Positions 15,911-61,956 of a DNA stretch of 64,000 nucleotides are shown piece by piece. Positions within the stretch are counted from its first letter, which is position 1. Each line of letters starts with the position of its first letter. Both the position numbers and the translations under genes were made by a program. The notes beneath the pieces were generated by a model. It did no database searches and was not told the DNA's origin. It worked only from the letters and a program-made list of their open reading frames with translations. The DNA comes from Chrysogorgia sp. JL179-B06 (taxonomy: Eukaryota > Cnidaria > Anthozoa > Scleralcyonacea > Chrysogorgiidae), in assembly GCA_035772405.1 (NCBI GenBank), contig JAYKKM010000452.1, forward strand, positions 2,918,001 through 2,982,000, written 5' to 3'.

Positions 15911-16254
15911 CTTTTTAATGATGTAAATATAAATCATATAAATATAAATCATGAATCACAATATAAATATAAATCATGAATCCAAAAAATTTATTTACAT
16001 ATTTTATATGGCTATAAACCGCTTCCGTCTAGACATTTTTCTCGCGCGATAAGTTATAAGACAATATTTTTAACTTTTGGTCTATTGAATTGTCGTTAAA
16101 ACGTTAATTGCTTCTTAGATTTCTCAAGCATAAATAATATAGAAACAAAATAAGTTTCGATAGAAACCTCGTTAACTGCATTTTTAGTACGACTATATAC
16201 TGTATATATATAGTAGCCTATAACGACTGGTCTGTTTTTTTATTTAATAAAAAG

Positions 16255-16402
16255 TAATATTGGGTATTTCATTCGATTAATCTGCATGTTCTAAGGATTT
16301 ATGGCGAAGAAAAATTTCGAGTGTTAGAATATATATATATACATTTTAAGCCCAAAGCGGGACCATTTGCAAAAAAGCAACATCTGAAGGCCTCCAGCCG
16401 GT
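16255..16402 (-). mobile_element. Truncated copy of the tRNA-Ala-like SINE
   Basis: The segment matches the minus-strand body of the SINE family at 60.6-62.8 kb: the AAATTTCGAGTGTTAGAATA region, then a ACATTTTAAG block and a GGCC-TCCAGCCGG end. It lacks the tRNA head and is more diverged than the other copies. Confidence 0.6.
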
Positions 16403-17174: not shown

Positions 17175-19342
17175 GTAAGTTGTTAAGTTTGAGTTGTGAA
17201 ATTGCGCCTTGATCATCGTAAATGTTTAACGTTTTTGCAGTTTAGTTATATAAACTTCAGATTCCCAGACGGGAACCGAATTCATTGCCTCCTAAAATAA
17301 AGGTAGTACTCTTGACCTGAAGAAGAAGCGCAAGTTTCGAGTCATTTTCGTTCAAATATAGGTCTAAGAACAATTTTACTATACATTTCACTAAAAGTGT
17401 AGTAATTTTATTTTACATAAAATTAGCCTTAAATGTTAATGTATAATTTTATGTAATATTCTCAGTTTATTTAGATTTTAGTTTCTAGTTTTCTCTTTTT
17501 ACTTACCACATCTGTAATGTTTGTCGTAATTCAGCCGTCTGGGCTGCCATGATTTTATTTAATCAACTATGTATCTATATATCCAGTTCTCCACTCAAAT
17601 ACGACCACGTTGACTCGAAATCGGTTTAGAAAAGCGACAATGTCATTTAACCAAGTTTATTATGTTAAGACACTTTGAACAAATCAACTACAATGTCTTA
17701 AACGTGAAGTTCTCATTTCATTGGACAATGTATAATCTCAATAATAATTTCGATTAAAATTGTATTGTACATTTTAAATATAACTATAGGCGTAAACACG
17801 GGCTACTTAGAAAGCTACTGGCATATGCAGTAATTTTGGGGTTGGCTTATTTTGTTTTTTCTGGAGCGCGGTAAATTTGTCGTCAATGTGATTTACAGTA
17901 ACTGTAACCATTTAATGACCGCCATTACGGGGATTACCATATACAGGTATTTCAGTGTCCCCAATAGTAATAGTGGTGTTCAAATGGTTCAACTTTGTCC
18001 TCAATGCTTAGGCCGCCACTATAGTTTAAGATATAGTGGAATAATTGATGTTTTAACTAGATATACAAGTTATTATTCATAATTAAGGCCATATATTTTC
18101 CGTTATTTTTAGTGCCTAAAAGTTACAAAAATATATTATTGTCAATGTATAAAAATATATTATACAACATAACCAAGAACAATCATATAGAACTATAAAC
18201 TAGAATTAAATGTTTGTCGTGACAGTGTGTTCAAGGCACAAACTGGGATATAAAAGATATTATATGGCTAAGAAAGATGGCGCACGCTGATTGGTTCGTG
18301 AGAGGTCCGGAAAAAAGCGTATTGCCCTCCTGGCGCTGTGAGCGGGCAACACGCCTTTTGCAGACCGGTAAGTTTTGGCGGGAAAATTTCTGAGTTGATT
18401 TAGATGAAAATAAAAGAGGATTTGAGTATGTTCGTTGAAAAAGTTCGAACAATAACACGTCCTGGAACATTAGTGCTGCTTTTCTTGAAAGCTGTTTATC
18501 TATAAGTGAAGAAAATGAATGCCTAACGACCAGTAACGCGTGTAAACATGAAGCGAAATCATCAAGCTCAGAGGTAAGGTAAACGGCAACATCTGAAGAC
18601 AAACACAACGTTAAAAACAGAGAACAAAATGAACCAAAAGCCATATAATAAATGTCTTATTAACCTCGTTTGCTTGGTCTGTACGGTAAAGTATTTGCCT
18701 TCGGTTTTTTCGCACACCTCAGGCAAATACTTTACCGTACAGACCTCACACTCGGTTAATAAGTCTTTATTGTATTAACTTTAACATCTTGGATATCTGT
18801 GACAATCAGCTGTAACTTGTACTGATAACCTAGAACATTTTGGAGTCGTATTTACAGGTAAAATATCAAGTGAAACAGGGTTATTCGATGGCAACATGTT
18901 TTCTGATTTATTAGGCGAAATATGTCAATGTACTGCATAGAAATGATCATAGAATATTGACGATATAAATATGAAATACATACTTGATATACATGAAACA
19001 ATAAACTGTTGAATAGCATCTACTTTATTTTGTATGATATCGCAATAAACAATACAGGCAATATAAAGCTAATCATAAATATTACAGTTGCCCTTAGTAC
19101 ATGTAACGTATTTGTATACAGCATTCATATGTTGAGTCTATTCGGGTATATATTATTATCACAACAACAGCATGTTTACCTGTCACTTCAAAGTTCACTT
19201 CATCAATGTCCTTCGTTTTTTTATTTAATGTAGCATTTGATCAACATTTTTCAGTACAATTTAATAGCATAAGTTTGATCGATTCGATAAAACATGTGAA
19301 CATAGAATATAAAATATCAAAATCGCTCGTCATCTTTTAGTG
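17175..19342. other. Non-coding or intronic, no exon recognised
   Basis: A 137-codon minus-strand frame at 18231-18644 has a signal-peptide-like start and scattered Cys but no domain or splice logic I trust. A foldback lies at 18647-18771. The rest is AT-rich. This may be intron of the MAM gene up to the giant transposon. Confidence 0.4.
18647..18771. repeat. Foldback MITE-like element
   Basis: The inner arms GGTCTGTACGGTAAAGTATT and its exact complement are separated by a ~20-base loop. Outer arms (AATAAATGTCTTATTAAC and its imperfect complement) extend the hairpin. Near-perfect arms suggest a young insertion. Confidence 0.8.
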
Positions 19343-19344
19343 TA

Positions 19345-19369
19345 CAGTACTGCTCAGAAATAACCTAAC
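19345..19369 (+). repeat. Left terminal inverted repeat of the giant element
   Basis: It begins CAGTACTGCTCAGAA directly after TA (19343-19344) and ends AACCTAAC. It differs from the right repeat at one position (A versus T at base 16). Confidence 0.8.
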
Positions 19370-19495
19370 ACTGCGTTCCCGTTCCGAACGCGTCTGGAAC
19401 TCGTTCCGAACTCGTTCCGAACGCGTCTGGAACGCGTTCCGAACGCGTCCCGAACGAGTTCCGAACGAGTTCCAAACGCGTTCGGAACGCCATTG
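19370..19495. repeat. Left subterminal palindromic array
   Basis: About ten units of roughly 12 bp such as CGTTCCGAACGCG and GTTCCGAACGAG follow the terminal repeat. Each contains the near-palindrome GTTCCGAAC or GTTCGGAAC. Subterminal repeats in DNA transposons often bind transposase or accessory proteins; binding here is inference. Confidence 0.8.
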
Positions 19496-20520
19496 AAAAA
19501 GTTAGTCGGAAATTTTGATTTAGCTTCGTTAATTTCCGAATTTAGCCGAACGTAAAACTTGTTGTTGATTGCTAGAACATAGATCATAGAACTACGCTGG
19601 AATGGTTGTAGTATACGGTTTATTAAACAAGATTAAAAGAGAAAGTACATTGGTGATTTTCCTTAAATTAAGTTTATAATTAGGCTTTTACAGTATATAT
19701 AAATGCTAAAATCGTATCAGTGAACGAAGCGAGCACCACCGCAAGGAAAATCTTCGCCGTTGTCACGTTCAATCGTTGATGAATATTTGCAAACTGCTAC
19801 GTCAATATATTAACACTAGGAGTTCTTATCAGAAGTGAAATGCTGCCTCCGAACATACACAGAAGCAGTGGGTATATTAGAATTTAGAAGGGTATTCCCG
19901 TTCGTTTCACTTTCATTGTTTGATTTGAAATATGACCGCTCGACCGCCAGATAACGCGTTCAATTCAGCAAACATTACAAACGTGAAAAAGTTCGATAAT
20001 CGAACTTCACGTTTGTAAAGTGTGGCGCTGGAATGGAAAATTTATAACTTGCTCTTTCGAGTAAATGTTGTTCGAAGTATATGAGTTGAACACTCAATTT
20101 TGACATTGTAAACGCGCCATGAAATCAAAATACAGCTGAAGAAGTTTAGCACTAAAGCAGACTCGTTTCCGTTTGCGAGTTCAGTCCGAACATTTGATCG
20201 GGAAACATTTGATTGGGAATTTGGGATCAGTTTCCGCCATAAAACGTCATATTAAATCTGTGGATATACAAACATACATAAAAAAGTCGATCGCCGGCTA
20301 TTAATACATGGACATAGTTCCGCGAAGAGGGGCCGGGCACGAGACACAGAGTAATGTATGTCAGAGATGTATACGGGAAATTGAATGAGATTTCCAAAAC
20401 ATCCATCAGAGAGGGCAGTGTTAATATTTAGGTTTGGATTTGGTAATAGGGATTCGGAGATCATTTTCACCTTTGACGGTGTCGGAGTGCGCTTTCCATA
20501 TATGAATGGTCACCGACTCA

Positions 20521-20625
20521 CGGATGAAATCGCACGCTGTACACTATTTTTAGTCTATAATTTTGCCAAAGACCTTAAAAATCTATATCGAAGCTAGAGC
20601 AACCTCATTCTTTGATCAAGAATGT
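20521..20625 (+). repeat. Upstream copy of a ~100-bp duplication
   Basis: TATTTTTAGTCTATAATTTT through CCTCATTCTTTGATCAAG matches 21165-21262 at roughly 80 percent by eye. The downstream copy lies 70 bp before the BEN start codon, so this may be a duplicated promoter or leader region. Confidence 0.6.
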
Positions 20626-21164
20626 ACCGATAAAGAGATCTTCGACTTCGTTCTTCAAGCAAAGCCAAGACAGCATTGCCATACTGTAGACATATATTCT
20701 GTCATGTCACTATTGTTTTGACGTCTGATATTGTTAATTTGTTTACGGGACTTATTATATGTACGGCTACGACATCGTTATGCCAGCCTTGGGTGGCAGT
20801 CGGTGCCAGAGGTTCTTCCGCTAATGGAACGCGGAAGAACCTCCTGGCATGCATGACCACACAATAATTGTTAATTTCCAGTAGAAACGCTCCTTTTGAA
20901 ACTGTTTCTTCGATGGCGCTGAAAAATTTATAATTATTCATTCGCTCGAGCCGCTATTATGTTTCAATTATGTTTTGATTATAAACCTAACCATAAACTG
21001 AAACTTCAGTATCGGCAAGATGTTTTTTGGAGACGATTTATGACGTTGTGACACTTTTGACGGATATCAAAGTTCGTTATAAATTCAACGATTAATCATT
21101 AATTATCCAGCCATGAATAGAGGCCCCAATATAAAGTTTCACCCTATCATCAAAATCGTAAACA

Positions 21165-21262
21165 ATGCCGAATGGTGCAGCTTTATTTTTAGTCTATGAC
21201 TTTTGCCTAAGACCTTATAAAAAACGATGTCGAACCTCGAGCGGCCTCATTCTTCGATCAAG
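21165..21262 (+). repeat. Downstream copy of the duplication, near the BEN start
   Basis: This is the partner of 20521-20625. It includes TATTTTTAGTCTATGACTTT and CCTCATTCTTCGATCAAG. An in-frame upstream ATG at 21165 exists, but the copied sequence looks like leader rather than protein. Confidence 0.6.
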
Positions 21263-21329
21263 TTTCAGAGTGTCCCGATCATTGTTCAAGCGCAGTTACA
21301 GTATTTATATTCTACCAAGTTTTAGTAAG

Positions 21330-24300
21330 ATGAGTCTTCGATGTATTACACGCGAACCAGCAAAGAGAATGCTAGTTTTTTTCGGTTGCGACGAAACGAC
21401 CTCGGTTCTCGCAACCAGTAAAGTGAAAAAAGTTTTAAATGGCAACAAGTTGGAGGAGGGAACATCTGTTCTGGTGGAGTACGGCAAAGATGAATTCGAG
21501 GCGCACGTTGTCAAACTACATGGTAAGAAAGACAAATTATACAATATTAAAGTTCGCCGTTTTATATATCCAGTCTCTGATCTCGCATTCTCGCGTATAT
21601 TTAAAAAATCTTAAGACTCGTATTTTCCTCTCATTTAGATGATCCCTGCGTGTTGAGACAGGCGGAAATGGACTTTCTTTCAAATAGATTTGATTCACAT
21701 GACGAATCGGACAAAGAAAACAATCTCAGTAAAAGGCAAAAGCTCTGTCCGGATAAACCTGAACTGGCCAAACCCAAAGGCAAAGCAGGAAAAGAACCAA
21801 AGTCGAAATCGAAGAAGGTAAGACAATTACCGTCACGGTTATTTCATGTTAGGCGTATTAGTGTATATTCCTAATTTCCTTCAGATTCAGAGTGCAGTGC
21901 CAGACTAAAAATTGACAAATTCTTTCATTGAGGCGGATTTCCATTCAGTGTTTTTTATCGTGCGATCGACTTTATTAGATCGCTTTCTTTTGAATTGTGA
22001 GCTCCGGATCGAGTAAAGTCGATCGCGCGATAAAAAGCACTGAATGGAAATCCATTCAAAATGTTGAAAAACTAGTCGTAATAGCTTATTAAACAACAGG
22101 ATTGGTATTGATATATATATACGGGGGTTTATATACGGGGGCTTATATACGGGGGGCTTATACACGGTCTAGCCAAAACAGGGTTGGACGTTGGGTTGGA
22201 CTAGCTAAAAGTGAACTAGTTTAGCTAAAAGTGATTTGGTCTAGCTAAAACTGATTTGGTCTAGGTAAAAGTGAATCGGTCTAGCTAAAAGTTATTTGGT
22301 CTAGCTAAAAGTGAATTGGTCTAGCTAAAAGTGATTTGGTCTAGCTAAAAGTGATTTGGTCTAGCTAAAAGTGATTTGGTCTAGCTAAAAGTGATTTGGT
22401 CTAGCTAAAAGTGAATTGGTCTAGCTAAAAGTGAATTGGTCTAGCTAAAAGTGAATTGGTCTAGCTAAAAGTGAATCGGTCTAGCTAACAGTGAATTGGT
22501 CTGACTAAAAGTGAATCGGTCTTGCTAAAAGTGATTTGGTCTAGCTAACAGTGAATTGGTCTGACTAAAAGTGAATCGGCTCGCTAAAAGTGAATCGGTC
22601 TTGCTAAAAGTGATTTGGTCTAGCTAACAGTGAATTGGTCTGACTAAAAGTGAATCGGTCTTGCTAAAAGTGAATTGGTCTAGCTAAAAGTGAATTGGTC
22701 TAGGTAAAAGTGAATCGGTCTAGCTAAAAGTGATTTGGTCTAGCTAACAGTGAATTGGTCTGACTAAAAGTGAATCGGTCTTGCTAAAAGTGATTTGGTC
22801 TAGCTAACAGTGAATTGGTCTGACTAAAAGTGAATCGGCTCGCTAAAAGTGATTTGGTCTTGCTAAAAGTGATTTGGTCAGGCTAAAAGTGATTTGGTCT
22901 AGCTAAAAGTGATTTGGTCTAGCTAACAGTGAATTGGTCTGACTAAAAGTGAATCGATCTTGCTAAAAGTGAATTGGTCTAGCTAACAGTGAATTGGTCT
23001 GACTAAAAGTGAATCGGCTCGCTAAAAGTGAATCGGTCTGGCTAAAAGTGATTTGGTCTAGGTAAAAGTGAATTGGTCTTGCTAAAAGTGATTTGGTCTG
23101 GCTAAAAATGATTTGATCTAGCTAGAAGTGATTTGTACTAGCTAAAAGTGAGTCGTCTTCATGTAAGCATAATTGTCCTCTCGCAATTCACTTTTAGCGA
23201 GACCAATTCACTTGTAGCTACAGTGTAGATCAATTCACTTTTAGCTAGACTGATTCACTTTCAGTATCCTGTTTTAGCTAGACCAATATCTTACCTATAC
23301 CAATATAGCCACGTGTTTTGCAAGCTTCTCAAGTGCCATTATACTCTAACTCGATAATCACACAACGACAAAGTTTTTTATTTATTTTCTAATTAAATAA
23401 CACCATTAGATTAACAATAAACTAAAGCCATGCAAAATGCAGATTTACCTGTTAGAAGGGTTCCTACGTGCATTGTTGGGAAGACTTTGTTGAAAACATG
23501 TGGGAGATTTTAGCAATGAAAATGCACCCAACGTTGCAGTCAAAACATTCTGTTGTGTTAGTACCTTGATTAGCCTTGCATCCAGGTATTCTTTGATTTC
23601 CTTTTGTAATTTAAACTACTTAATATCCATAAAAAGCTACTAAACACGTCAGCTTATGCTTTATTGAGTAATTTATAAAATAACCGGAAGTAAATGAGCA
23701 ACAACATGCTGTCTGATTGGTTACAATACTGAGCTCAAAAGCCATGCAAGCATAATCTGACGTTCCTCGCGTAGATTGTGTCGTTTTTTTATGGATTTTA
23801 AATGGTTTAAATCACAAAAGGAAGTCAAAGAATACCTGGATACAAGGCTATAGTCAAGGTACTTACACAACAGAATGTTTTAACTTGAGTACTAATTGCA
23901 ACGTTGAGTACTAATTTATACAACAAAGTCATCCTAGCAATGCCTCAAAAAACAGGTAAATCTGCATTTTTCATGGCTTTGTTGTTAAATTTAATGGTGC
24001 TATTTTATAAAAGAGAACATGGAAAAGGTGTAAAATGTTTATTTTACCTCTCGTCGGGCAGGATATTCACAAAGAAACATTTTTGTACTTGTAGCAGCTG
24101 CGCAGCATCTTTTTAAGCATAATTTACCTCAAGCTTAATATTTTCACCTTGTCAGTGTCATAATAGAAAATCATTCATGATTGGCCGATTAGCTTAGAGA
24201 AACGTGAAAGACCTCCCCTGATTTAGTAGTTGATGGTTTTTGGGAATGACATTTCTCTGTGGTTATTTACTTATTTTATAAAATAAATATCTAATGGTTT

Positions 24301-27300
24301 TCTGTGTTTCGATACTCTAATCCAAACACTCGGGATGTTGCTTGACTTTCCAAAAGCTAAAAACACTCGCCCAGCGACTCATGCTTTTTCCTCTTTTCTT
24401 AAGTCTGGCAACGTCCCGTGTGTTTGGACCAGAGTATCCAAACACGGAAAACCATTAGGTATTTCTTTGATAATATTGATCAGATAAACATATCAGAACA
24501 ATGAATATAATTGTTGTTATTGTGATATGAACAATGTCATAGAGCCTAGTTTATTTTATTTTTATTTTAGTTTATTTTTAATTTGCCTTGATTATGAAGT
24601 TTACATTTCCTATAATCATCAAATCCTACAATCATTATAATATACAAGGCTTGTAAAACCGCAACAGCAATTGCCAATTACTGCGGTTCCATTACAACGA
24701 TAATATAACATAATTGCTACAACAGCGTTAATTATATCACAGTTGGGTCGGTCTTTATGTTATTGCTAAGCTTAGGCCCTTATCCACCCACGGTCAACAA
24801 CTGATATTTTTCATTTCTCACAATTGTGACTTTTGGTGAAATACAATATATCACTCAAAGCCAGCTTGGATTTATTGGGATTTTTTCCTTGTCTTTTAGA
24901 TGATTTCAATTGAAGCTGAAGCATTACCATGTGCTGATAGCCATCCATCCACTCAGAAACCTATACCAGAGAACAAGCCTGGCTCACTTAAATTTTTAAA
25001 TGTAGAAGAACAACAAAAAGTTCTAAAACTCATTTCTGCATATGAAAAAGGAGATGGAAAGGAGGTTGGTGTTCAGACGGAACACAATGTTGTTCAGCCA
25101 CACCACTGTGAATGCCAAAATGATGTGGTGACAAAGTTAGATTTCCTTGAACAAAAAATCAATACTATAATTTCAATGTTGACAATAACTGAGTCAGCAA
25201 ATACATTTAAGGAACAAGATGAACATTTCAACTGCAATGATCTATATGTTGTTGGTAATGACAGCCTTGAAGAAGAACAAATTCTTCTTGCCTCAGTTGT
25301 CGAAAATGTTGGCCTAGCTATTAAAGAGTCACCAGCAACTGCATACCTTCCAGTTCCTAGTCAACACAGTGGGAACACAACATTTGATGTATCTCCTCCA
25401 CCAACCATGACCAGTCGACACAGTGGGAACACAACATTTGCTGTATGTCCTCCACCCACCATGACCAGTCAACACAGTAGGAACACAGCATTTGATGTAT
25501 CTCCTCCATCCACCATGACCAGTCAACACAGTGGGAACACAACATTTGCTGTATGTCCTCCACCAACCATGACCAGTCAACGCCAGAGGAGGTGCGAAGG
25601 TCGTCCCGGCATGCATTGCGCTTTGTTTTCTTCGTATTTGCTCTGGCGTAAAGTTGGCGGACAAAATATATATTTTTTCAGTGGTGCTTTTTTGTTTCAA
25701 TACCTGTGTTTTAAAAGGTAAGCTTTCTATATGATGTTTTTAGTTTAATCCAACAGATGTTACTCTGGTTTTTTTTGTCGTAGCATACTTGTTTCGGATC
25801 AATAAACAATTTTTTTGTTGATGCCTTCACGGGTCACAAAATTTTGCTGTAAAGTGATAAGCGAATATATGTACTTATTTAACGAAATACGAACGCAAAC
25901 ACAACACTGGATATGTTATTATAACAAGCTGAAAATTCTCTTTCAGTTAATAGTAAAAAATTTCTTGTTGCTCCATAAACTTAATTACAGTTAGACGTTG
26001 AAAAACCACTATTTTTCAATTTGCGAGAAAATCGTACTCGCATAACACATCTCTGTTCCGCCATAAAAAGTAGGCTTTGGAACTTGAATTTTGTGCAGAT
26101 TCAAGTTTAAGCCTTTTACTCTGTCGTCAGTAACTTTTTAGATATCCGAGGAAGAATATTTGCGATGAAATATCGGTTTCTTCACGAGGACTATTTCTTG
26201 TTGGTGGTTATATTGCATTTAGTTGCCTTCAATTATTCAAATATATTTACCGTAATATTTGATGAAATCTTTAAAAAATTTGTTCGGTGTGGATATGGAA
26301 GAATTTGCTTTCTTTTAGTACAAATTTTTTTCTTGTTGCTCCACAATTTAAATGAGAAAGAGGTCTGTGAAATTCCGCATCTTCTCAATTATACTTCGCC
26401 ATTCGTCAGATTGACAGCAAAACGTTGCCTATGACGTACTGTTGTTTTGGTTTACGTTTCCCCGCTCTCTTACTTTTATTTGGCGCTCGAAATTCTTTGC
26501 CGGTTGTCAGAACTACTAACTAAGTAATTCGTCTATTGGTATTTGATCCTTTCAGGAAACATAACAAAACGAAATGTTGAAGAGACTAAGGGCAAATTAT
26601 GTTGTGCCATTGTAAGCTCAAACGTTTGTACTTTGCTATCCTTCAACAATGATTATATGTGCATACTGTCCGTATATCTATGCGAGAGTTGAGTTCATCC
26701 TCTCCCCATTGTCCGTGTTTAATAACAATAATCCAAGTTGTTTTGTGCATGCCTCCTTTAAGATTTATTTACTTCTTTACTCCATAGTAGCCCATATGAC
26801 ATTGACATACCATTTGTTGTTGTAAAATACAGAGAATTTAATGGAATTGGTATCTTTTATGTTTTCAGGTTCATGCTCAATTTTTATTTCCACAGAAAGT
26901 TTCCTCAGAGGCCTTCTCCATGAAAAAAGAGCCTTTTGGTAAAATGTTTTAGGCCGGGTTTCAAGCACAGGCTGGGGAATTCAGAATAATAAAGTTGCAT
27001 AGCAGAATCGCCTCTATTGCTTGATTTGTACTTCTGAGATCTTTTAAATTAAATAATTAATACATTTTTAAAGCTGTGTATTACATTTGAAATAAAATTA
27101 CAATGATATTACAGCCACAAGTCTACATAACAAGTTGGGGCCCGGGGAGAACATGCCCCCAGTTCATACGCCTGTGGAAATTTAAGACAATTTTCCTGAC
27201 CCTTTTACAAAGGCAAGAAACTGTAGGTTATACCAACAGTGATTTCTCAAAACAGTTAAGTGCTATTAAGAGTCCAAAATTTTGTTGTTGATACACACAA

Positions 27301-28819
27301 TACTAGAGATGTACAATGATGTACAATTTGAGGTTTATTGTCAATGCCTTTATATATGGAGCTTTTCCAAAAGGTCTCCATTGCCATATCCCATATTACA
27401 ATTTACAAAGAAAGCATGATTTTATAAAGTTTGATTTTAATAGTCTATTGAATGGTCCATAGTCTATTGAATAGTTAATATTGAAATTTTATTAAATTGA
27501 GAGGGGGCTTATAAAGGAAATAACTTTGAAATCTAAAAACAAGCACATTTAAAATTTGAAATGTAAAATCAAGAATGTTAATACTCGACTATAAAAGCTA
27601 TAAAAATCGTTATTGATATATCTCAATCCTAACATTAAGTCGTATAAATAATAAAAAGTAAGGATAACTATATAAGATTTTTAAACTTGGTTAGTTTGAG
27701 CACCAAAAAGCTATCTCTGTCAGATGACTCAGATGTACTGTTACAACTATTACTACAATTATATTCGGCCAATACATTCAGTTTAACTACAGATGCTGGT
27801 TCCTGCAAAAAGATAATCCATTTCGAATCCGTTCACATTGCGAATCGGCACAAACAGTGCAATATATTTACAAATATCAAGCTTATAAATCTGATGTGGG
27901 TATAGCGGTATCTTTAAAATAGTATACATGACAAACCAGACGGAATATTAAACGTTAAAGTGTTGCTTGGGAATACAATGAATATAAAGAAGTTCGTGTG
28001 AGCCAAAAACTGAAGTGTTCTTGCCATGAACAGTCTTATACCACGACCGGTTTTCAAACCGCCATTTTAAAACCATGTTCGCTTCCCGAAGGTTCGTTGA
28101 ACAATGAAGAATTTCCGGCGGGGAATCGATAATATGTATCAAGCGCAATGCATTTTGGGAAGACCTTCGTACCTCCTCTGAGTCAACGCAGTGGGAACAC
28201 AACATTTTCAGATGTATCTCCTCCACCAACCATGACCAGTCGACACAGTGGGAACACATCATTTGCTGTATGTCCTCCACCCACAATGACCAGTCAATAC
28301 AGTGGGAACACATCATTTGCTGTATGTCCTCCACCCACCGTGACCAGTCAACACAGTGGGAACACAACATTTTCAGATGTATCTCCTCCATCAACCATGA
28401 CCAGTCAACACAGTGGGAACACAACATTTTCAGATGTATCTCCTCCAGCCACCATGATCGGTCAACACAGTGGGAACACAACATTTGCTGTATGTCCTCC
28501 ACCCACCATGACTAGTGCTTTGACTGCATCATCTACACTTACAATCCCAAGTGGAGTATTTGAAGAAACATTTAAGAGAAGCTCCTCAATGGCTAATTAT
28601 GCTAAAAATCTAACATTTAGTCTTTTTGCCAAAGAAGAGCTGATTGGCTCAAATTGTGTTGGAGCTTATGAGAAAAACTCACTTGAGAAAGATCAGCGAA
28701 TGAGCTTGATCAAGGATGCTACATTCAGAAAGTATAGTGTAGAGGACAAGAATAAATCTTGGTCTACGTGCAGAAAAGCCATAGACTCTGCAATTCGAAA
28801 ACTTCGATTTCGATGTTAA
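21330..28819 (+). CDS. BEN-domain protein, spliced, interrupted by a transposon
   Basis: Coding parts are 21330-21522, 21639-21817, 24900-25583 and 28190-28819. Donors (G|GTAAGA, AAG|GTAAGA) and acceptors (CTCATTTAG, TTGTCTTTTAG) agree in phase. Removing the 2,597-bp insertion and one 9-bp duplicate keeps one frame, giving 561 residues. Exon 1 has a compact VLVEYGKDEFEAHVVKL segment, perhaps a small beta-barrel. Exon 2 is Lys-rich (KPKGKAGKEPKSKSKK, a likely nuclear signal). Exon 3 has a probable coiled coil (TKLDFLEQKINTIISML), then ten 18-19-residue repeats. The last ~80 residues are a BEN domain (LFAKEELIGSN, WSTCRKAIDSAIRKL). BEN domains bind DNA or chromatin partners. The start at 21330 follows a duplicated leader. 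It may act on the element ends, but that is inference. Confidence 0.75.
21935..22053. repeat. Foldback MITE in BEN intron 2
   Basis: GGATTTCCATTCAGTG at the left faces its complement at the right; arms continue through TATCGTGCGATCGACTTTA with two mismatches. It is 119 bp with a short unpaired centre. Confidence 0.8.
22169..23285. repeat. 20-bp minisatellite with inverted end, BEN intron 2
   Basis: About 48 direct units of GGTCTAGCTAAAAGTGATTT and close variants (AATTGG, AATCGG, CTGACT, CTTGCT) run from 22190 to about 23155. Variants recur as a ~60-bp higher-order unit, most clearly at 22480-22860. From about 23184 to 23285 four or five units appear in inverse orientation (CAATTCACTTTTAGC). 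The array is bounded by GGTCTAGCCAAAACAG and its inverse CTGTTTTAGCTAGACC, so the whole tract is a lopsided foldback. Confidence 0.9.
23385..24010. repeat. Foldback element in BEN intron 2
   Basis: The left arm (about 23390-23625) with GATTTACCTGTT and CAGGTATTCTTTGA faces the right arm (about 23800-24005) with TCAAAGAATACCTG and AACAGGTAAATC. Arms are ~85-90 percent alike by eye. Size and form fit a long-TIR non-autonomous transposon. Confidence 0.75.
24292..24457. repeat. Foldback MITE in BEN intron 2
   Basis: TAATGGTTTTC at the left end faces GAAAACCATTA at the right. Arms continue with TGTGTTT-GATACTCT and CCAAACAC-CGGGA for about 50 bp. Length is 166 bp. Confidence 0.8.
25359..28513 (+). 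repeat. Coding 54/57-bp minisatellite in BEN exon 3
   Basis: Ten units encode variants of SQHSGNTTFAVCPPPTMT (18 residues) or the 19-residue form with FSDVSPP. Four lie before the inserted transposon (25359-25574) and six after (28181-28513). Two unit types, AVCPP and (S)DVSPP, alternate irregularly, which suggests unequal exchange. The repeats form a Ser/Thr/Pro-rich linker between coiled coil and BEN domain. Confidence 0.9.
25584..28180. mobile_element. Non-autonomous DNA transposon with ~40-bp TIRs, 9-bp target duplication
   Basis: The ends CAGAGGAGGTGCGAAGGTC and its near complement (about 35 of 40 bp alike) are flanked by AGTCAACGC on both sides (25575-25583 and 28181-28189). That 9-bp duplication occurs once per unit in the surrounding coding repeat, which proves an insertion. 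The interior shows no transposase. Short frames (26165-26434, 27948-28090 minus) have no motif I recognise. A 9-bp duplication is common in Mutator-like elements, while CAGAG ends recall hAT; superfamily is open. Confidence 0.85.
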
Positions 28820-28913
28820 TTTCTAGTTTTTACATGTTTATTACTAGGTTTACTAATTACTATTAGTTTTATTTCTAAGCTTCATTTCATCTTTTTGTAT
28901 CTCAAACGTTTGT

Positions 28914-28919
28914 AATAAA
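28914..28919 (+). terminator. Polyadenylation signal of the BEN gene
   Basis: AATAAA lies 95 bases after the BEN stop codon (TAA 28817-28819). It is the first canonical signal downstream and is followed by a T/G-containing region. Confidence 0.55.
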
Positions 28920-29304
28920 TTGTAAGTACACGGTATACAACTGCACATGTCCGGATAGTGATTCTACAACAGGTGAATTGTTGAAGATAAACTTTTACCA
29001 GCATTTCAATTTGGGGTGACTATTGCAGTCATTTTGACTATTGCATTACAGTAGTATTAATTTAAAAAATGTTTCAGACATTCACATTTCAATATTTTTA
29101 ACATTCAATTTAATATTGTATATTTTTATTGTTTTTGTAATTTGTCTTGGGGCTCCACTGATTAAATATTACCATCTTATAGTACGGTTTAGTGAATTTT
29201 GTTGCAATATTCAACAACACAGAAATAGGTTTTCAACAAAGCAAATATATATTGAATAAAAATAACTATAGAAAAATATATACGAGCCGATATCAGGTTT
29301 AAAC

Positions 29305-29572
29305 ATAATGATATAAAACAAGCGTTCACTGATATAAGTTATAATAAGCCTCTTCCAGGACAATATGCTATCCTGCTAAAGAAACAATAACGCATCATTA
29401 TATCTTATATCACATCCTGTCATTCTTTTTAATATTTTCCCGCTTTTATTTATAGGTGTAGATTTCCATATTTATTCTTAACCCGTTGAAGGCTGTAGTC
29501 TGACAGCCGAAAGCTCATACCAATAAAAACTTATTGTGAACCTAAATAAGTGAACGCTTGTTTTATCTCATT
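29305..29572. repeat. Foldback element between the convergent genes
   Basis: AACATAATGATATAAAACAA then GCGTTCAC at the left faces GTGAACGCTTGTTTTATCTC at the right. The centre holds a small stem, CTGTAGTCTGACAGCC. Confidence 0.65.
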
Positions 29573-29633
29573 AAAAATAACTATATTCAACAAAGTAAAA
29601 ATAACTTAATAATATAAAGGAAATATACTAATA

Positions 29634-29970
29634 ATAATGCACTTATCATCGGCTTCCCTGGGGGTTGACCCCTGGGACTCCTAGGGGCTTTTGTTAAGAA
29701 GATGGAACAAAACATCAACAAAGCACCTGGGTACAGGGAAATTTAAAAAGAGGGTTTGATAAGGGTTTATAGTTGAGCAAATTATAGTTTTTTTCCAAAT
29801 TATATATTTTTTTCTATACTATTCGATTGCAACAATTCTTAGATACCGCTGACCATATACCTGAACAATTCCCCTAGCCCGAGGGACACTATTTTTTTAC
29901 AAAAGACAACAAATCCCCGTGGGCTACCCCTGTTGTCGACCCCAGGGGAAGCCGATGATAAGTGCATAAT
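29634..29970. repeat. Foldback element between the convergent genes
   Basis: ATAATGCACTTATCATCGGC at the left faces GCCGATGATAAGTGCATAAT at the right; arms extend through the CCTGGGG blocks. Length is about 337 bp. Confidence 0.75.
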
Positions 29971-30118
29971 CAACAACAAAAATAATATTGTACTCAACAA
30001 AACTGAGAAAGTATTGATTGAATGAAGTGCTGGATCTACATTCCTAAGAGACAAATGTCATTGACAGATTGAGAGACCATAACTATAAAATTATATATAT
30101 AATTAAAATTGTTTTTAT

Positions 30119-33100
30119 CTAGTATCCAGAGGGTGCACCGTTGTTTGCTATCACAGCTGGAATAACTTTGTGTACATGTTGAATGTATCTCTGGCATGTT
30201 TATTTAGTAAGTTTCTTCCAGTACTCCGAAATTCCTTCAATAAGTTGTTCTTTGTTCCTTGGTTTCACATATTTCCGTATGTGATGTTTTAAACCGGCCC
30301 AAAGATTTTCGATTGGGTTTAAATCCTTAAAGAAAAAAAGTAAAGATTATTAAAGTTGTTTCATGGCAAAAGACAACAACTACAAATAGTGCTAATAAGG
30401 TACTATAATGAATAAACATTTTGGAGAAAAACATACAGTCATAAACATACAAGTCATAAAGCGCTTTATATACTGTAGATGTCTCAAACTCATTAAAAAT
30501 TCATTAAGAAAACACAGAAAAATCTGTATTTTCATCATTAACATCGAGATGTCTGTAAATGTGATCTGTATTAGCATAAAATTTCCACAACTTTCACCTT
30601 GATTTTCTTTTAAATACTACCGTAGAACCCCTATTAAGTGGCCACTTAATAGGAATTTGTCAAGATTAACATAAGCCATGGCAGAAATGTAATTTTATAT
30701 TATTAAATGCGACTTGCAGCTTGGTTATTTTAATATGATAAATTGTTTGCTCTCAAGCCTTGAGACCCCAGATGGGAATCAAACTGCTGCACACAATGTG
30801 TTGTATAAAAATGTTGTTTATAAATAAAAATGTTAAAATAATATTAATAATATTTAATACTTATATAGCCCTATTTACAATAATAGATCAATAGCGCTTA
30901 ACGAGGCAGTGTACAAGATAGAATAAGAATAAAACTAGATATAACTAGATATAACTACTGTATATGGAAACACGGGAAATGTTTTCTATTGCTTAATTAA
31001 AATTTCTTTGAATATTATTCTGTGTCTGCTACCAGTAACTATTTAATTTGGGGACTGGACACAACTTATACATAGGGTATCCAAAAAATCACAATTTTTT
31101 CTCCAAAATTGAGGGGTCGTCTTATGTGCCAGGTCGAGTTGTACGCCAGTTCAACTTGTACATTGTGATATACAGTAACTATAATCCAGAGGGCTTATTA
31201 TATATTTATATACCTTACTAATTACTGCACGCTGTATGTTTTTATACAGAATGCTTATTACAAGGCTATTGCACACTGATTCAACAGTGAAACACAAATA
31301 ATATTCGGGAATTGAGTGAATTTTGTCTAAATAGGACTTTTCAGTGTCAACCTTTCTTTGTGTGAAACGCTATGCAAATGTCACAGGACAGGCACTTTAA
31401 TTGTCTCAGTAGGAATGTCAAAAAATTACTTACTGGTGATTCTGGAGGTGTTGCCCAGTGGTTAATACCATTGTCACGCATCCACTTTTTGGTTGAATTG
31501 CTGGTATGCTTGGGGTCATTATCCTGCCACAATCGATGGCCATCAGGATACACTGCATTTACAAATGGTAACAAATTTCTTTGCAAAATGGTTTGATAAC
31601 CAAGACTTTCCATGCATCCACTAAATATGCACACCTGGGTTGCTCCTCGAGAAGAGATACCTGCCCAGACATGAACCTTTAGTAAAATAAAACAAACAAT
31701 TAGCTGAGCCCCAGTGTTTAATAATAATACAATGGAGCACTGCACTAGAATTGCAAGGTCGCACGTTCAATTCCAGCGGGAAAGCCTTGAAGTTGCATTT
31801 TATACAACTGGTCCCAGTTTAGTCTTAAAATGTATACATTCCAACACTTGAAATTTCCCTTCACAATAAATCCTTAGAACATGTAGTTTAATTGAGTGAA
31901 ATGCCAAATTTTACTTCTAATATACCCAGAATCTTATCCCGGCATTACCACCACTACATTATACACAGAACTGATCATGACTAGGCTCTCGGCAACAGCC
32001 TTCATACAGTAGCTGAAGTGGTCAGAGCACTGCACTAGAATTGCAAGGTCGCAGGTTCAATTCCAGCGGGAAAGCCTTGAAGTTGCATTTTTCACAACTG
32101 GTCCCGGTTTAGTCTTAAAATGTATACATTCCAACACTTGAAATTTCCCTTCACAATAAATCCTTAGAACATGTAGTTTAATTGAGTGAAATGCCAAATT
32201 TTACTTCTAATATACCCAGAATCTTATCCCGGCATTACCACCACTACATTATACACAGAACTGATCATGACTAGGCTCTCGGCAACAGCCTTCATACAGT
32301 AGCTGAAGTGGTTAGAGCACTGCACTAGAATTGCAAGGTCGCAGGTTCAATTCCAGCGGGAAAGCCTTGAAGTTGCATTTTTCACAACTGGTCCCGGTTT
32401 AGTCTTAAAATGTATACATTCCAACACTTGAAATTTCCCTTCACAATAAATCCTTAGAACATGTAGTTTAATTGAGTGAAATGCCAAATTTTACTTCTAA
32501 TATACCCACAATCTTATCCCGGCATTACCACCACTACATTATACACAGAACTCATGACTAGGCTCTCGGCAACAGCCTTCATACAGTAGCTGAAGTGTCA
32601 GAGCACTGCACTAGAATTGCAAGGTCGCAGGTTCAATTCCAGCGGGAAAGCCTTGAAGTTGCATTTTTCACAACTGGTCCCGGTTTAGTCTTAAAATGTA
32701 TACATTCCAACACTTGAACATGTAGTTTAATTGAGTGAAATGCCAAATATTGCTAGTAATATACCCACAATCTTATCCTAGCATTACCACCACTAAATAT
32801 ATATTATACCTGATTATACAGAACTCATGACTAGGCTCTCCATAGCTCATTGCTGACAGCACTGCACTAGTATCAATGTCGCTGGTTCAATTCCAGCCTT
32901 AAGTTGTATTTTTCGCAACTGGTCCGAGTTTGGTATTAGAGGACCCGATCAGGATCTCTTGAATGTAACTACCATTACAATATAACTTTGTAAACATTCA
33001 GATCAAAAACATTTAGACATGGTGAGGACCTCCTCAATCAGCAATCACCACTCACTAGTTTTAAAGACAGAAAATCACTAGTAGTTTACTACTGTAATAT

Positions 33101-34006
33101 ATATCAGGGCCCCAATGGATATAATGTAGCTGAGTTGCTGAAATTATCTTTATAAAGCGTTACCCACTAACCCAGACTGAACAAGCAATGTCAATCCAAA
33201 CTCCCTCTGAGGGTATAGAGCCCATGGTATTTCAAAGACAAAGTTGTAAATAAAGCCTTTGAATGTCAAGCAGACAAGCACCTACTATCTTACTTTAGTA
33301 TTAAATTGGCTATTAAACTCGTCAATGCCAACGGGGAAATCCTTGGTATACTAAGGCTTTAAAGATATAAGCTTAAGCTATTAATATATAAACGACAAAA
33401 AATTACCTTCAGCGGATGCTTTGGGCGGCCTTTTCGCTTGGGTGCCATTCCATCCTTACGAAAACAAAATCTTGCATGCTGCTGAATTTGGACACTGGTC
33501 TCATCAGTGAAAATCACATCTTCAAAAGTGTCTTTCTCTCTGAAAGCTTCTAGGCAGAACGATAACCTTTTGAGTTTGTTAGGGTCTCGTACCATTTGGC
33601 AATATCTGGTGTTTTCGTGTTTCCATCCCAGTTTGCGTCTCGTTCGACGAATCGTAGCCTCGGAGACAGTTACATCGCAATCTTCTACCAATTTATTTTT
33701 TAATTCGCGAGATGTCAATTCGTCGTTCTCTTTCAGTTTATCGTCTACATATTTTAACTGCTCCAAGTTTAAGAGCGGCTTTCGTCCACTGCGGGCAGCA
33801 TCCTGTATTCTACCGTTTTGTCGATAGCGAGAAAGAAAAAGACTAACTGCAGATCTCGATGATTCGATACCTTCTTCTGCAAGTAGATCTTTTATTTTCT
33901 GAATCTTAACTCCAGAAGACCTTAACGTAATTATTCTATTTCTTGCGTACGACGAAAGCTTCCCCATGACTGACAAAGACCAACTGACCAAGGTATTCTG
34001 TGCCAA
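30119..34006 (-). pseudogene. Tc1-type DD34E transposase, three exons, in-frame stop near C-terminus
   Basis: Exons on the minus strand are 34006-33407, 31676-31434 and 30325-30119, joined in phase 0 with GT-AG introns (donors AAG|GTAATT, CCA|GTAAGT; acceptors TACTAAAG, TCTTTAAG). The likely start is Met at 33967. Exon 1 has paired HTH regions (IITLRSSGVKIQKIKDLL; VSEATIRRTRRKLGW) and FTDET with the first Asp. Exon 2 has VWAGIS and WQDNDPKHTS with the second Asp. Exon 3 has DLNPIENLW with the Glu; 34 residues separate it from the second Asp, so DD34E. An in-frame TAA (30202-30200) cuts off the last 26 codons, which end in the family's GAPSGY-like tail. Length to the stop is 309 residues, 336 if read through. 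Introns are rare in this family. Activity is doubtful because of the stop. Confidence 0.88.
31735..32935 (+). repeat. Tandem array of tRNA-like SINE units (period ~290 bp) in transposase intron 1
   Basis: Unit starts (TAGCTGAAGTGG) lie at 32010, 32300 and 32587, giving periods of 290 and 287. A partial unit precedes them and a diverged one starts near 32842. Each unit has an A-box-like tRNA head, GGTTCAATTCC as B box, and a body with GTCTTAAAATGTATACATTC. Head-to-tail tandem SINEs behave like a satellite. It is the same family as the 60.6-62.8 kb cluster. Confidence 0.85.
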
Positions 34007-34104
34007 GGTCGTATGTCGAAATGAGTTAAAATGATGCTAAAGTTCGGAAAACAGCGAAGATCGCCGACGCGGGGCAGATATTGTCACGATGTTCGAATCA
34101 TCTG

Positions 34105-34272
34105 CGTTCCATTTCGTTCGGAACGCGTTCGGAACGCGTTCGGAACTCGTTCGGAACGAGTTCCGACCTCGTTCGGAACGAGATCGAAACCCGTTCCGAA
34201 CTCGTTTGGAACGACAATGGAACCCGTTCTGGCCGCGTTCGGAACGAGTTCCGAACTCGTTTCGAACGCGTT
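34105..34272. repeat. Right subterminal palindromic array
   Basis: Roughly a dozen units of about 12 bp such as CGTTCGGAACGCG, CGTTCGGAACGAG and CTCGTTCCGAAC lie between the transposase start and the right terminal repeat. They are the same family as the array at 19370-19495. Their location beside the transposase ATG means they could also act on its promoter. Confidence 0.8.
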
Positions 34273-34276
34273 TTTC

Positions 34277-34301
34277 GTTAGGTTAATTCTGAGCAGTACT
34301 G
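34277..34301 (-). repeat. Right terminal inverted repeat of the giant element
   Basis: Its complement begins CAGTACTGCTCAGAA and ends AACCTAAC, matching the left end at 24 of 25 positions. TA follows at 34302-34303. Confidence 0.8.
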
Positions 34302-34303
34302 TA

Positions 34304-35202
34304 GGTCTGCCGCGATCGACATGTGCGATTGTAAGCAGTGTGAGCGTGTTTATGATTAAGATACTTGCCAGCCACACTCCAAAAACCTATCGGGATGATG
34401 CAATAATTGTAATTTGTCGACCCGAAAAAATATATATATAGAAATGCCACCGAATCCTAGACTCGACTACCACAGGTAGCCCAAGTAGTAAGGTTAGACT
34501 GATAATTTAGAGATATTACTTACTCATAACGTTTGACTTTTAGTTCCCGCTAATACGGATAAGCCACTCGTCGATAGACGGGTTCGGTGACCTAAATAGA
34601 GAAAGGGGAAAGGAAATTAAAGGGAAAGAAAGGTTAAAGTTAATCGTAATATTTTTGACAAATTTTGTTTGCACTTACTTGCAAATAGGACAACACCCTA
34701 CCCCTTGGACAATTGTGTCCAGTGGCCACACCGGTGATGTTGGTTACCCAACCCCCACATCCGGTGTCTGGACATGGTTCTGAGACTAGAAGACACCTGA
34801 CAACAAAATGAGATATGTGATATGTGCGCGTTACACTTAAATTTGCTTGGTGTTAATAGTATACATAATACTTCAAGTCTGAAAGAAGGATTTAACTTAC
34901 TGAGCATGCAGTGACATATTGCGATAGTTTACATTGGTTTGTTGATTGACAACAAACATTGTTTTTTTAGTGGAAGGGGTAAAATGTGAAAAGAGAAAAA
35001 AAATTAATGACTTTATAATAAATTATGCCATGCGAACAAATGGTCTCACGACCAAAGAGGCCTTGAATATGTGATCATTTATTTTTCAATTTTTCCACGA
35101 TTAATGGGTTGATTAATTGTTTATCTATGGAGAACGAAAACAGTTTGTATTTGGCGTAATGGAGATTTTATGCATTTTGAGTTTAAAGGGAGATGCCGAG
35201 GT
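34304..35202. other. Non-coding flank of the giant element
   Basis: No exon, RNA gene or array was recognised. Short frames lack motifs. Confidence 0.4.
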
Positions 35203-57323: not shown

Positions 57324-57370
57324 GAGAGAGGATTTAAATATAGTAAAATACGTATATGGAAAAAGTGACT

Positions 57371-57443
57371 GCCCCAACCGGGAATCGAACCCTGGTCTCC
57401 GAATCAACGTTTCGGCGCTCTGACCTTTGAGCTAATGAGACAC
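57371..57443 (-). repeat. tRNA-like SINE head in the left arm
   Basis: The minus strand has TAGCTCAAAGGTCAGAGC (A box) and GGGTTCGATTCCCGG (B box). The anticodon stem CCGAA/TTCGG pairs, but the acceptor stem does not and loop base 33 is C. So it is a tRNA-derived repeat, not a tRNA gene. An inverse partial copy at 57627-57680 makes a nested foldback; both are mirrored in the right arm (59195-59250, 59430-59505). Confidence 0.7.
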
Positions 57444-57792
57444 GGTCAGAACAGTCAGTGATTTCTGCATATACGTATTAATTCGCCGCTTTCACTTAAA
57501 CACCTGCAAGGCCTCTCGAGCGCACTTCCCAAAGTAGCGAAGCGATACACGACTTCTTGTATACAGAGGGCTTTAAGAATAATAATTAATATGAGAGAGG
57601 ATTTAAATATAGTCAAATACGTCAGAGCGCCGAAACGTTGATTCGGAGACCAGGGTTCGATTCCCGGTTGGGGCAGTCACTTTTTCCATATACGTATTTG
57701 ACTATATATATATATATACAAGCTTCGGCCTGTCATACGAAACAAATTTGTCGCGAATAAACTTCAATGAAATAATCGGTGTTTTCATTTTG

Positions 57793-57795
<3 letters not shown>

Positions 57796-57882
<87 letters not shown>
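57796..57882. repeat. (TA)n tract, left arm
   Basis: About 87 bp of TA; its mirror is 58994-59079. Confidence 0.95.
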
Positions 57883-57885
<3 letters not shown>

Positions 57886-58329
57886 TCAGGTTCATGAAAA
57901 TCATATCAGGTAGAGTGCTCAATACCTAAGTAGAGCAGAATAGTAAGAACAAAAAAAGACGAACTTTGGTTACTTCATTTAAACTTTATTTCACTACAGA
58001 TCTGTTTCGTATGGAAAGCTATATTAGCTTACCACACTCATCAGGTGAGTATTTCGACTGGTGTTACAAAGCGGAAACTTGATATTGTATTGATCTACAA
58101 GACGGATTAATTATGTATGACGTTATGTGAAGTTGCGGTGCATATTAATTAGCTAATACAGTAGTTGCACAGTAAATGTTTTTTTCTATGCCTGCAAGTT
58201 GATATAAGTTCGTTTCTGCTGTTGAGTGAACATAATTCGGGGTGACAAATAATTATCAATTTTTCATAAAGGCATAAGTTACAACGTTTTGTTAAATAAA
58301 TAAATATAAATAAATAAATAAATATATAT

Positions 58330-58538
<209 letters not shown>

Positions 58539-58991
58539 ATATATATTGATATATATTTATTTATTTATTTATATTTATTTATTTAACAAAACGTTGTAAC
58601 TTATGCCTTTATGAAAAATTTATAATTATTTGTCACCCCGAATTATGTTCACTCAACAGCAGAAACGAACTTATATCAACTTGCAGGCATAGAAAAAAAC
58701 ATTTACTGTGCAACTACTGTATTAGCTAATTAATATGCACCGCAACTTCACATAACGTCATACATAATTAATCCGTCTTGTAGATCAATACAATATCAAG
58801 TTTCCGCTTTGTAACACCAGTCGCAATACTCACCTGATGAGTGTGGTAAGCTAATATAGCTTTCCATACGAAACAGATCTGTAGTGAAATAAAGTTTAAA
58901 TGAAGTAACCAAAGTTCGTCTTTTTTGTTCTTACTATTCTGCTCTACTTAGGTATTGAGCACTCTACCTGATATGATTTTCATGAACCTGA

Positions 58992-58993
<2 letters not shown>

Positions 58994-59079
<86 letters not shown>
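58994..59079. repeat. (TA)n tract, right arm
   Basis: Mirror of 57796-57882. Confidence 0.95.
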
Positions 59080-59082
<3 letters not shown>

Positions 59083-59549
59083 CAAAATGAAAACACCGAT
59101 TATTTCATTGAAGTTTATTCGCGACAAATTTGTTTCGTATGACAGGCCGAAGCTTGTATATATATATATAGTCAAATACGTATATGGAAAAAGTGACTGC
59201 CCCAACCGGGAATCGAACCCTGGTCTCCGAATCAACGTTTCGGCGCTCTGACGTATTTGACTATATTTAAATCCTCTCTCATATTAATTATTATTCTTAA
59301 AGCCCTCTGTATACAAGAAGTCGTGTATCGCTTCGCTACTTTGGGAAGTGCGCTCGAGAGGCCTTGCAGGTGTTTAAGTGAAAGCGGCGAATTAATACGT
59401 ATATGCAGAAATCACTGACTGTTCTGACCGTGTCTCATTAGCTCAAAGGTCAGAGCGCCGAAACGTTGATTCGGAGACCAGGGTTCGATTCCCGGTTGGG
59501 GCAGTCACTTTTTCCATATACGTATTTTACTATATTTAAATCCTCTCTC

Positions 59550-59755
<206 letters not shown>

Positions 59756-59898
59756 GCATCCACCGTATATGAGCTATTCTTCAAAATCATTGATATTCTC
59801 AATTTCAATTGGACGTCACTTTGTCTTGTATTTGTGATTTGACAATATACATGTATATGTATACAAGAAGACGACAAAAGAACACTATAGGAACATAC

Positions 59899-60609
59899 AT
59901 TGCACTTGTATATCGAGGGAATAACGAAGGGACGTTGAATAAGCCAGTTCCAGTGACTGAAATCTTTGTTTGATTGGATGGCCAACGGCGGCAGCGACAG
60001 TTTTGCGGACAATCTAGGAGGGAAGGAAATGTATAACAAGTTAATATAGTTAAAATAGTAGATTATTCTAATGAAAAATAAAAAAGTCAATTCCAAACAC
60101 TTATAACTTATTCATGGATTGAAATTATTTCTTTATTGTTTATTTACCTGGAACATCAAAAAAGTAACATGAATTCCCTTCAGAGTAATTGGCTGTTAAA
60201 ACCAAACAACGAAAGTAGGAATTAAAAGTCATAATTTAAAATAGTAAAGGGAAAACGAATGAGAATTACAGTGTGGTAGGAGATAAATGGACTGGTAGAA
60301 GGAAAAGGAAGCGGTATTAGATATGGAAGAGGCGAACCGCTAAAATAAAACTAGCAAAGAGAAACGAAGAAAAATAAGAGGGAATGGGAAATAGCTGGAA
60401 GTGAGAAGATAAGAGAAGAAAGAAACAAATAAGATAACAAATAAGATAAAAGAAGATACAGAAGAAAAAATATTTGAAATTACCAAAATTAAAAAAAACA
60501 CTGAATAATTCTTACCTTCTGCTACGTTATACTCAAGTTTAAATCCAGTTCGAAAATTCAAGTTGTCCGTTTGAAACGTAATCTGCAGCATGTTGGTTTG
60601 CGATCTAAA
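59899..60609 (-). pseudogene. Inverted duplicate of the CUB tail and LRR N-cap exons
   Basis: Mirror images of the left-arm exons are 60609-60516 (last 94 bases of the CUB exon), 60192-60148 (linker) and 60013-59899 (LRR N-cap). Splice sites are kept. The CUB 5' part and its acceptor are missing, so this copy cannot make the same product. Confidence 0.85.
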
Positions 60610-60969
60610 TATACAATATAGGCATATAGTCCCGGTTTGGTCTTAAAATTTATGTATTCCAACACTCGAAATTTTCCTTCACCATAAATCCTTTCAACAT
60701 GTAGTATTATCGAGTGAAATGCCAAATATTACCTATAATATACCCAGAATCTTATCCCGGCATTACCACCATATATACAGAACTCGTGACTAGGCTCTCG
60801 GCAACGGCTTCCGTAGCTCAGTGGTCAGAGCACTGCACTAGCATCGCATGGTCGCGGGTTCAATTTCAGCCGGAAGGCCTTGAAGTTGCATTTTTCGCAA
60901 CTGGTCCCGCTTTGGTCTTAAAATGTATGTATTTCCACACTCGAAATTTGCCTTCACCATAAATCTTGT

Positions 60970-61198
<229 letters not shown>

Positions 61199-61742: not shown

Positions 61743-61956
<214 letters not shown>

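Follow-up and report, generated by a model that had tools for sequence, protein, structure and literature searches.

A probable two-gene Tc1/mariner transposon

We analysed 64,000 nucleotides of contig JAYKKM010000452.1 from Chrysogorgia sp. JL179-B06 (hereafter the window) and find that positions 19345–34301 probably represent a cut-and-paste DNA transposon of the Tc1/mariner superfamily. It belongs to a family of ∼11–15 kb elements with two convergent, intron-containing genes, one for a DD34E transposase and one for a BEN-domain protein. In the reading that we favour, the terminal inverted repeats (TIRs) would be bound by the transposase, and the repeat arrays next to them by an oligomeric BEN protein. 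The window copy is 14,957 bp long (Table 1). Tc1/mariner elements are typically, though not by definition, 1–5 kb long with one gene, whereas the five copies described below measure 11.4–15.1 kb and have two genes.

The two 25-bp TIRs are identical at 24 of 25 bases and each has a TA on its outer side, as an earlier sequence-only reading of this DNA had claimed. At up to three mismatches, the TIR matches the window at just these two places and is absent from 100 shuffles; the next-best 25-mers agree at 16/25 positions. In the 781-Mb assembly, the same threshold gives 1916 + 1896 matches, and the reversed control gives none. Chance ends are ruled out by the shuffles, by the poor next-best matches and by the presence of the same ends in another copy.

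Just inside the TIR, the BEN end reads ACTGC or GCTGC and the transposase end reads GAAAA, CAAAA or ACAAT (window, C23, C86 and C301). Among 30 TIR loci (L001–L030), 12 begin with ACTGC, 17 are AAAA-rich and one reads AGTGT; these bases may label which end it is. The target site (19085–19344 and 34304–34433) sits in a dispersed repeat with many genome copies at 77–84%.

The same ends enclose both genes elsewhere in the genome

The BEN exon has 53 matches in the assembly at E ≤ 1e-5. Five copies from three subfamilies, the window included, have both TIRs and both genes in convergent orientation, and all five (5/5) are flanked by a TA duplication on both sides. The search for further copies with both ends, suggested by the sequence-only reading, thus yielded four (C23, C159, C86 and C301). 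The flanks of different copies have no similarity at E 1e-3, the sole match being one of 24 bp between C159's own two flanks. C86 and C301 match the window at 64 and 69% in the BEN domain, at 36 and 31% in the first part of exon C and at 61–83% in the transposase exons, with introns in the same places. C159 contains an uninterrupted BEN frame of 437 codons.

Two simpler origins can be dismissed. A composite of two separate short elements is ruled out, since four other copies share the two-gene interior between the same ends. The size is not due to nested insertions alone, as C159 measures 14,955 bp with its BEN frame uninterrupted and C86 measures 11,356 bp.

Joining the window flanks at one TA gives full-length matches at two places, C122 and C452:1456 kb, both at 96%. 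Both sites read TAGTG-TA-CAG-TA-GGTC, compared with TAGTG-TA-GGTC in the joined flanks. TA-CAG-TA is the footprint expected once a Tc1-type element beginning with CAG excises. A further 36 matches are listed at 77–84%; the one that was read, the diverged C350, has a plain TA. C122 and C452:1456 kb are nearly identical, perhaps through duplication of a single locus, and the count is therefore at least one excision. Compared with the joined flanks, the footprint shows that a family member left this site, which answers the call for an empty-site check.

Shorter elements with the same TIRs were taken from 100 listed of 3,812 TIR places. Among these 100 are 25 simple adjacent TIR pairs of <25 kb: 12 of 242–379 bp, one of 868 bp, 11 of 1.6–4.7 kb and one of 15,145 bp. 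All 16 shorter elements fetched have 11-bp-type repeats at both ends. Each of the five ∼300-bp elements (L042–L046) has palindromic units of the window type at its two ends (5/5), and the 11 elements of 1.6–4.7 kb (L031–L041) have arrays at both ends (11/11). A TA duplication is found on both sides of 15 of the 16, L046 having AA on one side. The sequence-only reading had named closer partner ends as evidence against a single unit. There are indeed closer TIR pairs, but what they bound are shorter elements: eight of the 11 in the 1.6–4.7 kb class hold transposase remnants and two (L037 and L040) hold BEN exon A. In L040, exon A and the transposase remnant are on opposite strands. No host BEN locus without TIRs was found among the 8 of 53 BEN matches examined beyond 1.5 kb.

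Taken together, the two-gene copies with both TIRs at four other places, where the flanks are different, and the two sites that match the joined flanks with a Tc1-type footprint, uphold the proposal that these ends bound one mobile unit. That the BEN gene is part of this unit is borne out by its presence in three subfamilies, by exon A in two shorter elements and by purifying selection on the BEN domain (see below).

Transposase and BEN genes

The transposase gene has three exons and two GT-AG introns. The spliced exons have the catalytic spacing D-83-D-34-E of the Tc1/mariner superfamily, so that the DD34E transposase placed at the right end by the sequence-only reading stands, but as a gene with two introns. 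Exon 1, which encodes helix-turn-helix (HTH) domains, scores over the cut-off for HTH_32, HTH_Tnp_Tc3_2 (33.4 bits versus 31.5) and PAX. Exon 2 alone reaches 22.5 bits for DDE_3, below the cut-off of 28.6; a Paramuricea clavata protein (P0001) that is 66% identical to the window transposase scores 66.3 bits.

The database holds 1,918 relatives of the transposase; among the best 120 listed, the top two are from the octocoral P. clavata (66 and 68%). In a tree of 49 rows, built with 48 homologues out of the 120 listed, the window transposase groups with two P. clavata proteins and P0004 (support 100/98). P0004 is seemingly an unspliced reading, and its homology stops where both transposase introns sit; the introns thus look old. 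Searches of viral contigs with the transposase, TIR and BEN found no relatives, and neither did a search of the phage collection. Matches in the plasmid collection are all <60% identical, lie on bacterial plasmids and are IS630 transposases where annotated.

Among five other close copies (L047, L048, L050, L051 and L052), the codon at the position of the window's exon 3 TAA was read in all but L052, and in each of these four it is a sense codon. This rules out the premature stop as a family trait.

Pfam gives no match on the BEN exon of the window. Eight homologues were found, one of which has a Pfam BEN match of 30.3 bits (cut-off 23.2), and an AlphaFold model of the domain has BEN domains as its best PDB matches, with a fold like that of the CGCG readers BEND3 and BANP. 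According to this model, the C-terminal domain has a BEN fold. The homologue and the model sustain the BEN identity of the 561-residue gene described in the sequence-only reading, but the length of 561 residues is obtained only once a 2,597-bp insert is removed. Among 670 database candidates for residues 1–280 of the protein, none reaches E ≤ 1, and a BEN scan of the genome contigs collection found no relatives.

We compared the BEN domain of the window with 15 of 24 divergent loci, several of which are near-identical to each other. L055, L060, L067, L069–L071 and L073–L075 were left out, L060 and L067 for an internal stop and the others mostly as repeats. The proportions of nonsynonymous and synonymous differences, pN and pS, are 0.22–0.31 and 0.61–0.84, respectively, and the corresponding rate ratio (dN/dS) is 0.11–0.25 in the seven comparisons with estimable dS. 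Nine pairs of divergent loci have a dS of 0.02–1.2; dN/dS is 0.06–0.17 in eight of these and 0.98 in one (dN 0.033, dS 0.034). Three close copies give 0.30–0.60, values that rest on very few changes. As judged from the low pN and dN/dS, purifying selection has acted on the BEN domain between subfamilies, which was thus kept as a protein while they diverged.

Subterminal arrays

Inside both TIRs lie the palindromic arrays of one family that the sequence-only reading had described (Table 1). Exact GTTCNGAAC occurs 14 times in the 64 kb, and all 14 occurrences are within the two arrays (in shuffles, 0.61 on average and 4 at most). The junctions of window-type units read AACGCGTT, five of whose six occurrences in the window are within the arrays. 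The observed/expected ratio of CpG is 2.3–2.4 in the arrays, 0.77 in the remainder of the element and 0.93–0.94 in the flanks.

Over the 100 bp internal to the TIR, 11/22-bp periodicity exceeds that of 99% of shuffles at 25 of the first 30 TIR loci. The periods are 11 or 22 bp (some 11/12 or 23), and the motifs differ between elements; between subfamilies, the TIR is nearly invariant and the array motif varies. Since the arrays change under a constant TIR, their reader, which we take to be BEN, seems to co-diversify with its sites, as this pattern suggests. A palindromic GGTCAAACGTCGAAC... stretch is found near the transposase start in L037 and L040, both copies of their subfamily.

Possible role of the BEN protein

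We infer that the TIRs are most likely read by the transposase and the CpG-rich arrays by oligomers of the BEN protein, which would act as an accessory factor that binds the ends. Recognition of the nearly invariant 25-bp TIR would rest on the paired-like HTH of the transposase itself. The BEN protein would oligomerize through its coiled-coil-like middle part, and the oligomers would coat the CpG-rich arrays, whose 11-bp phase would align successive sites along the same face of the helix. BEN would thereby help to mark, pair or protect ends that are up to 15 kb apart. BANP and BEND3 are described as reading CGCG and as being repelled by its methylation, and BANP as needing oligomerization for this (PMC11472053). 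The proposal of the sequence-only reading that BEN is a DNA-binding accessory factor like the Myb-like protein of Harbinger would fit this scheme by analogy.

Several observations weigh against this reading. Counting the window, surroundings were retrieved for eight copies, of which five possess both ends; within the stretches read, one end is present in C378 and in C345 and neither in C204. In C378 this is the transposase end, and the 8 kb before the BEN locus contain no TIR. C345 likewise keeps the transposase end, and its match begins ∼1 kb inward of the left end. The 7 kb retrieved for C204 contain no TIR but just one match at 18/25 positions, which lacks TA. None of the 24 divergent BEN loci has transposase exon 3 within 1.5 kb, and in the two that were followed up it lies further off. 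The window copy is damaged by the 2.6-kb insert in its BEN exon and by the in-frame stop in transposase exon 3; C23, C378 and C86 look damaged too, since their transposase exon 1 is split into more than one piece. It should also be noted that the element behind the footprint sites was not necessarily full length.

Other points of this kind concern the arrays and their proposed reader. The CpG excess extends beyond the array at the BEN end (observed/expected 1.36 at 19491–21300), and five of the 30 TIR loci lack the 11/22-bp periodicity. Arrays of the C301, L031 and L037 type are not palindromic and the two ends are unlike, so that one BEN protein would need to read two motifs. The middle part of BEN is weakly conserved between subfamilies (31–36%), and C301 yielded no match to exon B. 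Finally, Sleeping Beauty-type transposases themselves bind internal repeats, and the transposase could thus be the array reader.

Alternatively, BEN could be an element-encoded regulator of transcription or chromatin (an autoregulator, insulator or anti-silencer) that acts on arrays beside both promoters and is dispensable for cut-and-paste. The literature, as far as we drew on it, describes human BEN proteins as mostly chromatin-related and fly ones as boundary and repression factors, and the arrays lie just outside both genes, with BEN exon A beginning 1986 bp from one element end and the transposase start codon lying 335 bp from the other. Against this, elements of ∼300 bp and of 1.6–4.7 kb, without intact genes of this size, retain arrays at both ends, which points to a cis role in movement. 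Because these short elements keep the arrays though the genes are gone, we favour a role of the arrays in movement, beyond gene control alone; by itself, this evidence would allow the transposase as reader as well as BEN. We regard the regulator as an unlikely explanation, albeit one to be taken seriously.

Accessory end binding by BEN might also go further. BEN oligomers could read unmethylated CpG in the phased arrays, in which case DNA methylation would gate transposition, and array motif and BEN domain would co-evolve as a lock and key that separates subfamilies under one TIR. We put this forward as a speculation and consider it improbable in this full form.

It is rather less probable that the transposase binds the 11-bp arrays itself and BEN does something else. 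The transposase carries HTH domains of its own, but the TIRs are nearly invariant while the array motif shifts between subfamilies, and the arrays suit BEN readers in both motif style and CpG content. That BEN is a mere passenger, a host gene captured by the element, is very improbable: BEN genes are common in animals and residues 1–280 of the N-terminal part have no database relative at E ≤ 1, but the gene has the same place and orientation in three subfamilies, its exon A occurs in two shorter elements and it is under purifying selection.

Nested inserts and neighbouring repeats

The 2,597-bp insert, in which no long open reading frame was seen, splits BEN exon C. The 290-bp units in the transposase intron, which contain a tRNA-like B box, look like a tandem array of short interspersed elements (SINEs) and have relatives at 60629–62821 and 16252–16391 in the window. 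Fold-back inverted repeats, or repeats like those of miniature inverted-repeat transposable elements (MITEs), lie between the exons (23392–24008, 24273–24476, 21935–22053 and 29634–29970). Outside the element, 57370–62680 contains six tRNA-model matches amid duplicated TA-rich sequence, perhaps tRNA-derived repeats and not genes.

Table 1. Features of the window element and positions of the other two-gene copies with both ends
Feature	Position	Strand	Length	Evidence or remarks
Left TA target duplication	19343–19344			Outside of TIR; joined flanks and footprint sites
25-bp TIR, BEN end	19345–19369	+		Window match and genome matches
Array of 11-bp palindromic units (GTTCSGAAC plus 2), BEN end	19380–19490			Sequence repeats
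BEN exon A	21330–21522	+		96–100% in close copies C23, C159, C345; 64% in C86; 57% in C301
BEN exon B	21639–21817	+		92–98% in C23, C159, C345; 54% in C86; not found in C301
20-bp tandem array within BEN intron 2	22196–23151			Longer in copy C23
BEN exon C, first part (coiled-coil-like stretch, 54-bp coding repeats)	24900–25583	+		Sequence
Nested insert	25584–28180		2,597 bp	CAGAGGAGG terminal repeats, 9-bp duplication AGTCAACGC; absent from C23
BEN exon C, second part, with C-terminal BEN domain within 28517–28816	28181–28819	+		Homologues, Pfam on homologue, AlphaFold model
Transposase exon 3 (catalytic E)	30119–30325	-		Spliced reading; in-frame TAA at 30200–30202
Transposase exon 2 (DDE core, second D)	31434–31676	-		Profile match, spliced reading; intron positions same in C23, C86, C301
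290-bp tandem units with tRNA-like B box	31735–32718 (up to 32938)			Lie in the transposase intron; of nested or host origin
Transposase exon 1 (HTH/paired-like domains, first catalytic D)	33407–33967	-		Profile matches, spliced reading
Array of 11-bp palindromic units, transposase end	34115–34272			Sequence repeats
25-bp TIR, transposase end	34277–34301	-		Window match and genome matches
Right TA target duplication	34302–34303			Outside of TIR; copies and footprint sites
Copy C23	4289408–4304552		15,145 bp	Both TIRs, TA, both genes
Copy C159	1394622–1409576		14,955 bp	Both TIRs, TA, both genes; ends and BEN region read
Copy C86	1286729–1298084		11,356 bp	Both TIRs, TA, both genes; own subfamily
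Copy C301	2006958–2020918		13,961 bp	Both TIRs, TA, both genes; own subfamily

Relation to known transposons

The element shares with the DD34E group of Tc1/mariner (IS630-Tc1-mariner) elements a DD34E transposase with HTH, the TA target, TIRs beginning with CAGT, a 3-nt excision footprint and short non-autonomous elements with the same TIRs. It differs from them in its 11–15 kb length, its two genes, the two transposase introns and the 11-bp-phased arrays inside both ends; Tc1/mariner elements are described as 1–5 kb long with transposases of 282–345 residues (PMC2874221). Multi-ORF members are found among the ciliate TBE and Tec elements, which are described as having a Tc1/mariner transposase and three ORFs (PMC7325037; PMC12242761). 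Unlike the present element, these have other accessory proteins (in Tec, a site-specific recombinase), and the descriptions of them that we used mention no BEN protein.

PIF/Harbinger elements are described as having two-protein transposition, a 3-bp target duplication and characterized transposases without an obvious binding domain (PMC2836001). Their ORF1, with a Myb-like domain, and transposase parallel the two element-encoded proteins found here, and MITEs are mobilized in numbers in both cases. In contrast to Harbinger, the present element has a TA duplication and a Tc1-type transposase with paired-like HTH, and it is not a Harbinger member. The RAG-like transposase and its partner are unrelated to those of the window element. 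Two convergent genes, as seen here, are also reported for RAG-like transposons (RAG1-like and RAG2-like; PMC7204232).

The BEN domains of BEND3 and BANP belong to host proteins and, in the open-access literature searched, are not reported in transposons. In that literature, judged by title or the start of the abstract, we found no BEN gene in Tc1/mariner or any other DNA transposon, and papers that combine BEN domain and Tc1 are, by title, on insect topics only (wasp and moth gene transfer, insect immunity). A term search shows that the words mariner and Tc1 are absent from the main text of a review of giant transposons (PMC6431247).

With this element, Tc1/mariner gains a putative DNA-binding partner of a kind not found in the open-access literature searched, and its size, introns and arrays fall outside the usual range. 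The subfamilies form a natural series for side-by-side comparison of TIR, array, transposase and BEN. The role of a second transposon protein thereby becomes testable, as does the way in which a 15-kb Tc1-type element locates its ends and pairs them, and the occurrence of BEN as an element gene bears on the origin of animal BEN genes.

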